A DNA stretch of 57,546 nt. Origin: Bacteroidota bacterium (lineage in GTDB: Bacteria; Bacteroidota; Bacteroidia; B-17B0; Aurantibacillaceae). The notes under the pieces are model-generated. The model was not told the origin of the DNA and searched no databases. It worked only from the letters and a program-made list of their open reading frames with translations. Each line of letters opens with the position of its first letter. Positions within the stretch are counted from its first letter, which is position 1. The stretch is from positions 1 to 57,546 of the forward strand of contig JACCXH010000072.1 in the NCBI GenBank assembly GCA_013697245.1, read 5' to 3'. Below are positions 36,775 to 39,500 of this stretch, one piece after another. The position numbers and the translations under genes were made by a program.

Positions 36775-37788
36775 CTAAAAAGCGGCATTCATTTGTTCCC
36801 AAAGCATATCTTTTAATTGCAGGATATTTTTTTGGCTGGCAGATGAAAAGAAAATAAATGGTACTTTATTTTTACCTGTTAATCTTTTCTTAAGATCCTT
36901 GTTCATTTCACTTTCCAATTCATCATCTAAAAGATCGGCTTTACTGATTGCTAAAATTCTTTTTTTATCCAACAATTCGGGATTGAATTTTTTTAATTCG
37001 TTCAGTAAAATTTTGTATTCATCAACAATATCTTTACTGTCGCAACTTACTAAAAATAATAAAGAAGAGTTTCGTTCAATATGTCTTAAAAAACGCAAAC
37101 CCAATCCTTTGCCTTCATGTGCCCCTTCAATAATACCGGGGATGTCGGCCATAACAAAACTTTTATGATCGCGGTAACTTACAATTCCTAAATTAGGCAC
37201 TAAGGTTGTAAATGGATAATTGGCGATCTCAGGTTTTGCAGCACTCACTACAGAAAGTAAAGTAGATTTTCCGGCATTTGGAAATCCAACCAAACCAACA
37301 TCAGCTAAAACTTTTAATTCCAATATTTTCCATTCGGTTTTTCCATTCTCACCGGGTTGCGCATATTGCGGATTTTGCTGAACGCTATTTTTAAAATTTG
37401 CATTGCCCATGCCTCCTCTTCCACCCGGTACCAAAACTATTTCCTGTCCATCTTCGGTGATCTCGCATTCTATTTCTCCGGTTTCTTCATCGCGGGCAAT
37501 TGTTCCTAATGGCACATCTAAATATTCATCGCCACCTTCTTTACCCGATTTGTTTCCACTTGAGCCATTTACACCGCCATCAGCAATAATATGTTTACGG
37601 TATTTTAAATGGATCAATGTCCACAATTGTTTATTACCTCTTAAGATAATGTGGCCACCTCGTCCGCCATTTCCGCCATCCGGGCCACCAAAGGCAGTTA
37701 ATTTATCTCTGTGAAAATGAACTGAACCTGCGCCGCCTTTACCACTGCGACAACACACTTTAACGTAATCAACAAAATTATTATCCAT
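36775..37788 (-). CDS. obg: ribosome assembly GTPase Obg
   Basis: Obg is a late 50S assembly and stress GTPase. The Gly-rich N-terminal OBG fold (about 1-158) includes [17 protein letters not shown] and [15 protein letters not shown]. The G domain carries GFPNAGKS (168-175), DIPG (215-218) and the NKxD-equivalent SKAD. The 337-residue length lacks the extra C-terminal OCT domain, as usual in Bacteroidota. It follows hpt-adk, a conserved neighbourhood, but a hairpin at 37806-37838 lies between adk and obg and may separate expression. Its stop is one base from that of the convergent serine hydrolase. Confidence 0.96.
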
Positions 37789-37805: not shown

Positions 37806-37838
37806 AAAAAAGTCTAATGCAAAAAGCATCAGACTTTT
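37806..37838 (-). terminator. terminator after adk
   Basis: On the minus strand AGTCT/ATGC pairs with GCAT/AGACT around TTTTT, with one A/C mismatch, followed by a run of T (the A-run 37806-37811 on the plus strand). It separates adk from obg and may attenuate read-through. Confidence 0.7.
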
Positions 37839-37853
37839 AATATGTTTATATAT

Positions 37854-38933
37854 TTATTTTCTTCTGCCTGACTTTTTTGCTTTCGCAACTTTCTTTGCAG
37901 GTTTTTTAGTTACTTTTTTTGCAGCTGGCTTTTTTGCCGCTACTTTTTTCGTTGCAACTTTCTTAATTACTTTTTTTATTGCTTTTCTTTTTACTATCTT
38001 TTTTGCTATTGCTTTTTTTGGTGAAGCTTTTTTAGTTACTTTTTTTACCGCTTTTTTCTTAGCAGCCACTTTTGCTTTCTTTACAGGTTTAGCAATTTTC
38101 TTTACAGGCTTAGCAACTTTTTTAGCTGCTGATTTTGCAGGGGCTTTTTTTGCTGGCAAGCTTACTTTTTTTGCTTTAGCGGCTTGTTTTTTGTTTTCTT
38201 TTTCTTCTTCAGCTTCTTCAGCCTCAATTCTCTTTATAGCATCAATTTCCAATAATAATTCAGGTTCAATTTCGTTTGCTACATCAAAATCCTGTATAGT
38301 AAGATCCAAATGCTCCAGATCGCTTTCCAAAGCAGTAAGGTCCATTTCTGCATTTAAAAAGGTAATTCTATCAACCAATAGTTTAAAGATCTCATCTATT
38401 GTACCAATGCCTTCTATTGAATGGTATTTACCCTGCTCGCTATAAAAAGTTTTAAGTGGTAAAGTTTTTGTATTGTATTCTAAAATTCTTCTGCGAATAA
38501 CATCTTCGTTCCTGTCATCTGCGCGCCCGCTTGATTCACCTCTTTTTAATAAACGCTTTGTCAACTCTTCATCATCCACTTCAAGTGCTAACATTCCACT
38601 AATACCGGTACCTTTCTTTTGTAAAAGGTCATCTAAAGCAATTGCTTGCGCAGTTGTTCTCGGAAACCCATCAAAAATAAAACCTTTGGCATTTGTGTTA
38701 TCGTCTAACTTAGATTCTATCATTCCAATTACAATCTCATCGCTAACCAATTCGCCTCTATCCATGATCTCTTTGGCTTTTTTTCCTAAAGCCGTTCCCC
38801 TGTCTATCTCGCTGCGCAAAATATCGCCGGTACTTAAATGCACTAAACCGTATTTGCTTATTAGGTTTTCTGATTGTGTACCTTTACCTGCGCCCGGAGG
38901 GCCAAATAACACAAGGTTTAACATTTTTTTCAT
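37854..38933 (-). CDS. adk: adenylate kinase with histone H1-like C-terminal tail
   Basis: Adenylate kinase interconverts ATP, ADP and AMP. The core (1-193) is standard: P-loop GPPGAGKGT (11-19), DGFPRT, the short-lid RGESSGRADDR region and YNTKTLPL. Most Bacteroidota enzymes end here at about 190 residues. This one continues with an acidic linker (about 194-247) and then about 112 residues (248-359) made almost only of Lys, Ala, Val and Pro, with repeated KKVAKPVKK, AAKK and KKAVKKV units, like histone H1 or AlgP tails. Such tails bind DNA or RNA. The ATG at 38924 (MLNLVLF) is an alternative start. It lies 30 bases after hpt. Confidence 0.93.
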   Translation of the reverse strand: MKKMLNLVLFGPPGAGKGTQSENLISKYGLVHLSTGDILRSEIDRGTALGKKAKEIMDRGELVSDEIVIGMIESKLDDNTNAKGFIFDGFPRTTAQAIALDDLLQKKGTGISGMLALEVDDEELTKRLLKRGESSGRADDRNEDVIRRRILEYNTKTLPLKTFYSEQGKYHSIEGIGTIDEIFKLLVDRITFLNAEMDLTALESDLEHLDLTIQDFDVANEIEPELLLEIDAIKRIEAEEAEEEKENKKQAAKAKKVSLPAKKAPAKSAAKKVAKPVKKIAKPVKKAKVAAKKKAVKKVTKKASPKKAIAKKIVKRKAIKKVIKKVATKKVAAKKPAAKKVTKKPAKKVAKAKKSGRRK

Positions 38934-38963: not shown

Positions 38964-39500
38964 TTAAGCAAGAACGTATATTTCTTTTAAATTTCTTCCA
39001 AATCCGTCATAGTCCAAGCCGTAACCTATTACAAAATCGTTTGGGATCTTTATGCCGTAGTAATCTATTTTAAATTCTTTTTTATAAGAATCCGGTTTTA
39101 ATAATACGGTGGCAACTTTTATTTGTTTTACATTTTTTCTTTTTAAAACGGTAATTAATTTTTCTAAAGTAATTCCGGTATCAACTATGTCCTCAACAAT
39201 TACTACTGTTCTTCCCGTTACATCTTCCGATAAGCCTATTAACTCAGTAACATTTCCGCTACTTGTTGTGCCATGGTAACTTGCTACTTTAATAAAAGAT
39301 ATTTCGCAAGGTATACTTACTTCTTTTAAAAGATCGGCAGCAAACATAAAAGAACCATTTAGTACAACCAAAAAAAAAGGCAGCTCTTTTTCAAGTTCGC
39401 TATTTATAGAATTGGCAATTTTTTTAACAGCATCAGATATTTGTTGTTGAGAAATATATGGCTTAAATTGCTTATCTTTTATGGTAACGAGGTCGCTCAT
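38964..39500 (-). CDS. hpt: hypoxanthine phosphoribosyltransferase
   Basis: Purine salvage enzyme: hypoxanthine/guanine plus PRPP gives IMP/GMP. The 178-residue protein has the PRPP loop VVIVEDIVDTG, ASYHGTTSSG (flexible loop), LLKPDSYKKEF and VGYGLDYDGFGRNL-like ending (IGYGLDYDGFGRN). The frame could be opened much further upstream, but that part is antisense to the coding region of sua5 and unlike any relative. The chosen ATG follows a TATATTTG box by only six bases. First gene of the conserved hpt-adk-obg order. Confidence 0.95.
   Translation of the reverse strand: MSDLVTIKDKQFKPYISQQQISDAVKKIANSINSELEKELPFFLVVLNGSFMFAADLLKEVSIPCEISFIKVASYHGTTSSGNVTELIGLSEDVTGRTVVIVEDIVDTGITLEKLITVLKRKNVKQIKVATVLLKPDSYKKEFKIDYYGIKIPNDFVIGYGLDYDGFGRNLKEIYVLA

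Follow-up and report, generated by a model that had tools for sequence, protein, structure and literature searches.

A histone H1-like tail on a conserved acidic neck extends adenylate kinase in a clade of Bacteroidota

Adenylate kinase (Adk) balances AMP, ADP and ATP, sets the energy charge of the cell, and is usually taken to diffuse freely. Why, then, should a bacterium carry an Adk that runs on, in frame, into a long polycationic extension? Such a gene lies in the window analysed here, the whole 57,546-nucleotide stretch of contig JACCXH010000072.1 from a member of the Aurantibacillaceae (Bacteroidota). On its minus strand (38933..37854), an ATG-initiated open reading frame (ORF) encodes 359 residues. 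The original prediction described one continuous frame joining Adk to a histone H1-like tail, a description that holds.

Computation identifies residues 1-193 (38355..38933, minus strand) as an intact short-type Adk, in agreement with the completeness claimed for this part. The ORF scored 173 bits against Pfam ADK (cut-off 26.8) and 232.5 bits against the 188-position NCBIfam model NF001381 (cut-off 187), and it carries the Adk motifs GPPGAGKGTQ at residue 11, STGD at 34, DGFPRT at 88 and GRADD at 136. With P-loop, NMP-binding and short LID motifs in place and curated cut-offs passed, the domain falls within the short-type bacterial Adks. AlphaFold2 block means of 90-98 span residues 1-200, the top Foldseek match is the Thermus structure 3cm0 (TM 0.86 by target length), and the best 50 Foldseek rows listed are all adenylate or UMP-CMP kinases. 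The ORF is the single Adk-family match in its own genome, and each of 38 matched genomes of the genus likewise holds one match, ruling out an extra Adk paralogue.

The gene is flanked upstream by a 178-residue ORF beginning MSDLVTIKDK (38964..39500, minus strand), which from its sequence we take to be hpt-like (hypoxanthine phosphoribosyltransferase), and downstream by a 337-residue ORF (36775..37788, minus strand), presumably an obgE-like GTPase, with matches near adk in relatives. As proposed, the ORF is followed by its own intrinsic terminator-like hairpin, located 3′ of the stop codon (37808..37838, minus strand) and comprising a 13-pair stem and a T run (fold z -4.5). A scan of 3 kb found two such sites against 2.2 in shuffled sequence, so the scan by itself proves nothing.

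The tail itself occupies residues 248-359 (37857..38192, minus strand). Its 112 residues include 48 Lys, 26 Ala, 13 Val and 7 Pro (84% K/A/V/P) with a net charge of +51, and KKVAKPVKK occurs at residue 271 of the ORF, bearing out the reported composition of almost only these four residues in repeats of this type. Such a lysine count exceeds chance: among the window's stop-to-stop frames of at least 112 residues (70 in all), no other has more than 24. Codons for Lys, Ala and Val are mixed along the tail, the +1 and +2 frames contain 12 and 8 stops, and one antisense frame is open across it. Tandem Repeats Finder recovered degenerate repeats only (best unit 69 nt, about 2 copies, 75% matches); with repeats degenerate and codons mixed, DNA repeat expansion is out as the sole origin of the tail.

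Structure prediction points to a disordered tail: AlphaFold2 pLDDT block means fall to 46-62 once residue 250 is passed, and beyond residue 254 the model contains neither helix nor strand. Across 68 unique tails, the basic part measures 69-233 residues (median 132), with a median of 41% Lys and a median net charge of +53. Being long, predicted disordered, Lys/Ala/Pro-rich, strongly positive and C-terminal, the tail resembles the H1-like tails of the AlgP and TopA type, a descriptive class that has no curated family. The label H1-like stands for composition and charge but does not extend to membership of the HC2 family, since Pfam HC2 (PF07382) gave the tail 10.6 bits (E 0.63) against a cut-off of 40; searching NCBIfam with the tail alone returned no match.

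Between kinase and tail lies a neck (residues 194-247; 38193..38354, minus strand) whose acidic character, noted in the original prediction, is confirmed by a computed net charge of -17; beyond that note, it is strongly conserved and predicted to be helical. An AlphaFold2 model built on 42 sequences, only five of which include the neck, places helices at 179-219 and 224-254, with block means of 81-98 over the neck helices but 68 at the bend, and predicts the neck to be a continuation of the final Adk helix. Searches of PDB sequences, NCBIfam and Pfam returned no match to the neck, which rules out a known domain from these libraries. Within the window's family (f1) this segment is as conserved as the kinase, yet matched by no library searched. 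A neck motif of our own making is present in 42 of 69 rows, which belong to genera g1, g5, g7, g8 and g10 or to the two named relatives. The other 27, namely the tail-bearing rows of g2, g4, g6 and g9 and all 21 rows from other families, lack it.

The tail is conserved in its own clade. Within the window's genus, 38 of 40 genomes gave an Adk match, and 36 of these 38 frames are 347-434 residues long; the other two measure 251 residues, cut by a contig end, and 55 residues, a 50-residue partial match. Across the family, 80 of 87 genomes matched, and an order-level search returned the same set. Among the 48 family loci read, 45 carry the basic tail, two (genus g3) end just past the kinase and one is cut by its contig, so that the feature is spread over a clade rather than confined to a single strain, as had been anticipated. 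In one of the genus g2 loci (L068, genome G040), a long His/Asp/Glu-rich stretch, possibly metal-binding, lies between the kinase and the K/A tail.

Evolutionary rates reveal that both extensions are under purifying selection and that the neck is constrained no less than the kinase. Across eight pairs of close relatives, the kinase has dN/dS values of 0.02-0.05, the neck 0.01-0.03 and the tail 0.12-0.19. The pair with the least saturation (dS about 0.4) gave 0.16 for the tail, and because dS exceeds 1 in most of the other pairs, these values are rough. A fixed composition alone lowers dN/dS, and the tail value is thus weaker evidence than the neck value. Charge and composition persist as residue order and tail length vary, the pattern expected of a disordered polyelectrolyte. 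The alternative of an artefact, in which the tail stems from a sequencing or assembly join or the frame is untranslated past residue 193, can be given almost no weight: the only hints of it are the low complexity of the sequence and a single antisense frame that stays open across the tail, and it conflicts with the presence of the tail in separate assemblies and with purifying selection acting on neck and tail.

How far does the tail extend beyond this family? A class-level search matched 294 of 296 genomes; among the matches listed, 22 long frames were read, of which 10 bear K-rich tails (six of them in genus g29) and 12 do not. A scan of genome contigs found the tail in at least four among the 80 loci listed, these four being Bacteroidota/Bacteroidetes and two of them identical to loci already in our set. 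In g29, another genus of the Bacteroidia, in which 34 of 36 genomes gave an Adk match, a K-rich tail follows the kinase immediately in 17 of the 30 loci read (one of them truncated by its contig within the tail), and 13 are tail-less, ending 9-22 residues beyond the point of the kinase/tail junction. Single tailed cases occur in families f6, f11, f36 and f42. Extensions of other kinds were also observed: one 511-residue Adk frame from the contig scan (L133, JAIFMG010000010.1) is extended at its N terminus and ends in 128 residues of acidic, beta-like, repetitive sequence, and another (L051, genome G093) continues in frame into a non-basic C-terminal part of 333 residues.

Mapping tail state onto a quick single-gene tree (171 rows, 68 tailed, reduced from 180 by dropping duplicates of kinase plus tail; no state was assigned to L019, which a contig end cuts) required at least seven changes. 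Forty-eight rows from f1 and its two named relatives formed one group (SH-aLRT support 90), and the g29 tails split into groups of nine, four, three and one. In f1, 38 of the 45 tailed rows had matches to both hpt and obg nearby; in f20, so did 16 of 17 tailed rows and all 12 tail-less ones, as scored by presence rather than order in the short flanks fetched. Such shared flanks fit a single ancestral adk that gained or lost its tail.

Similar modules occur on other proteins of the same genome. As a protein query, the tail matched only itself there, so a DNA pattern for KK[AV][AV]KK was used instead; this pattern, which misses other K-rich proteins, gave 20 hits on nine contigs against 10 for the reversed control. 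Besides Adk (contig C36), five contigs (C10, C21, C47, C54 and C57) yielded proteins that are K/A-rich or bear such an arm, C41 and C53 each had a single hit inside an ordinary protein, and no frame was recovered for C28. Two are free K/A proteins of H1-like composition (164 and 51 residues), both under the cut-offs of H1-like models; their coexistence with the tailed Adk contradicts the idea that the fusion replaces a separate H1-like gene. K/A arms were found on a SWIB protein, ribosomal protein bTHX and a LigD-type ligase. The SWIB-domain protein (L084, C54:29877) has its arm at the N terminus, resembling the ends of TopA/TopIII-SWIB fusion models; the THX protein (L082, C47:71312; TIGR04560 39.6 bits, cut-off 26) has a C-terminal arm; and the ligase (L078:538-2439, C21) unites ligase and primase-polymerase domains in one frame with a K/A-rich linker.

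A comparable survey in g29 (20 pattern clusters from five hand-picked genomes, about 17 giving K/A-rich frames) found the module on small free proteins, TopA, L21, a glyoxalase-fold protein, DUF72 and 2-oxoacid:ferredoxin oxidoreductase. A further protein has a DksA-like end, to which Pfam gives no hit. The oxidoreductase (L204:1966-3981, genome G709; Pfam POR and POR_N), with its long K/A-rich C-terminal tail, represents a second tailed metabolic enzyme. Genome G711, one of the five, has K/A-rich proteins though its Adk is tail-less, and pattern counts per genome were higher where Adk is tailed, with the hits in Adk itself included and uncorrected, so that no weight is put on the difference. 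Collectively, many but not all bearers of the module are linked to nucleic acids or ribosomes, and some are metabolic.

We lean, though not strongly, towards a housekeeping Adk whose disordered polycationic tail, mounted on the conserved acidic helical neck, serves as a polyanion tether. The tail would bind polyanions irrespective of their sequence, in the manner of the AlgP and TopA tails, with nucleic acid or ribonucleoprotein as its main target and polyphosphate (polyP) as a possible further one; we infer this binding from those two tails and from the company that the K/A module keeps. Tethering might then concentrate AMP/ADP/ATP exchange at the nucleoid, ribosomes or polyP, with the neck holding the tail away from the active site and perhaps binding it when no polyanion is near. 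Against such a tether stand the K/A modules on the 2-oxoacid oxidoreductase, the glyoxalase-fold protein and DUF72, which have no obvious nucleic-acid role, the two g3 genomes and 13 of 30 g29 loci that manage without the tail, and the K/A-rich proteins of G711, whose Adk has none. The same observations on varied and partly metabolic bearers, together with gain or loss inside one genus and the seven or more changes on the tree, would suit a passenger, that is, an arm of a kind that these lineages readily grow, aiding only solubility on Adk and lost with little or no effect. We rate that as fairly unlikely, because the tail is near-constant in f1, constraint on the neck matches that on the kinase, and charge and Lys content are held while length drifts. 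The opposite charges and the low neck dN/dS could instead reflect self-regulation, with neck and tail binding each other to gate the active site or dimerisation until polyanions release the clamp; this appears very unlikely, given that tails occur without the neck motif in 27 of 69 rows and that the AlphaFold2 model has no ordered contact between tail and neck.

As a special case of the tether, the tail may be a polyP anchor, with Adk and PPK1 together turning polyP and AMP into ADP and ATP and so replacing PPK2. All 13 genus genomes tested, the window's own included, have a PPK1 match, two (one of them partial) have a PPK2 match, and the own genome gave no match to PPK2, so a polyP role for the tail may be considered. 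According to a review, overproduction of PPK1 in Escherichia coli elicited polyP:AMP phosphotransferase activity with adenylate kinase. Lysine-rich stretches are also reported to bind polyP in EngA and SrmB of Pseudomonas aeruginosa (PMC12077175) and in YihI and RNase R of E. coli. The window's tail has 10 lysines in 20 residues with a longest run of three, compared with nine in 20 including four in a row in EngA and SrmB (PMC12077175). That shorter run, the commonness of PPK1 (20 of 21 genomes tested), by which its presence says little, and the fact that the searched texts of the EngA/SrmB and YihI/RNase R studies do not name adenylate kinase make this special case rather doubtful. Quite unlikely is the conjecture that some Bacteroidota repeatedly tag housekeeping enzymes, such as Adk and the 2-oxoacid oxidoreductase, with the cationic module also borne by their chromatin-like and ribosomal proteins, recruiting energy metabolism to nucleoid or polyP condensates, with PPK1 and tethered Adk providing a route from polyP to ATP without PPK2.

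A selected, clade-wide H1-like tail on the sole Adk suggests that the location of this enzyme matters to these uncultured bacteria. The g29 loci with and without the tail (17 and 13 of the 30 read) offer natural pairs for comparison, and a single deletion of the tail could test whether nucleotide balance is localised to the nucleoid, ribosomes or polyP.

An Adk of this architecture is not without precedent. The curated 335-position model NF010381 (PRK13808), which presumably stems from alphaproteobacteria, scores the basic tail of the window's Adk: 182.6 bits for residues 1-193, 182.0 for 1-247 and 201.4 at full length (profile positions 2-321), a gain of about 19 bits from the tail, with nothing added by the neck alone. 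A relative (L093) reached 218.2 bits over positions 2-333. Since the model scores the tail, an extended-Adk architecture is already catalogued; the difference is that 201.4 bits lies far below the curated cut-off of 426, which places the window's Adk outside this family. In a phylum sample from which other genomes known to carry tailed Adks are absent, 389 of 392 genomes matched and none of the 392 exceeded the cut-off; among the matches listed, only genome G000 aligns beyond profile position 250.

H1-like tails and long Adks are already known; no description was found of a case that is selected, spread across a clade and provided with a conserved neck of its own, and the open-access literature, with subscription papers largely outside this scope, yielded no description of an Adk with an H1-like or lysine-rich tail. 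Adk is also extended in the Hpt-Adk fusion, seen in Flavobacteriaceae and other groups: of 17 rows with additional N-terminal sequence, 11 have a segment there that is 47-53% identical to the Hpt-like protein encoded upstream in the window. This extension differs in being N-terminal and an enzyme, and these rows end a few residues past the kinase. Chlamydial HC2 shares the Lys/Ala richness but is a free nucleoprotein, and its model matches the tail only under the cut-off given above. In a survey of low-complexity regions in prokaryotes, those rich in lysine are linked to DNA-binding proteins; the main text of that survey does not mention Adk. The facts used here on polyP binders, TopA, AlgP, the survey and the review derive from PMC12077175, PMC12345225, PMC7398561, PMC6821194, PMC8776046, PMC3163519 and PMC9239181.

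AlgP/PhaF of Pseudomonas, with KPAA-repeat C-terminal domains, shares the long disordered Lys/Ala/Pro tail. AlgP is reported to have a whole-protein net charge of +55 and to localise to polyP granules, or to the nucleoid region when polyP kinases are lacking. It differs from the window's Adk in that its remainder is reported to be a predicted helical domain rather than an enzyme, and its repeats are KPAA, compared with mixed KKxAKK-like repeats in the window. Actinobacterial topoisomerase I (TopA) provides the likeness of an enzyme with an H1-like, lysine-rich C-terminal part, whose lysine repeats reportedly hold the enzyme on DNA; the substrate of TopA is that DNA, whereas the substrates of Adk are free nucleotides.
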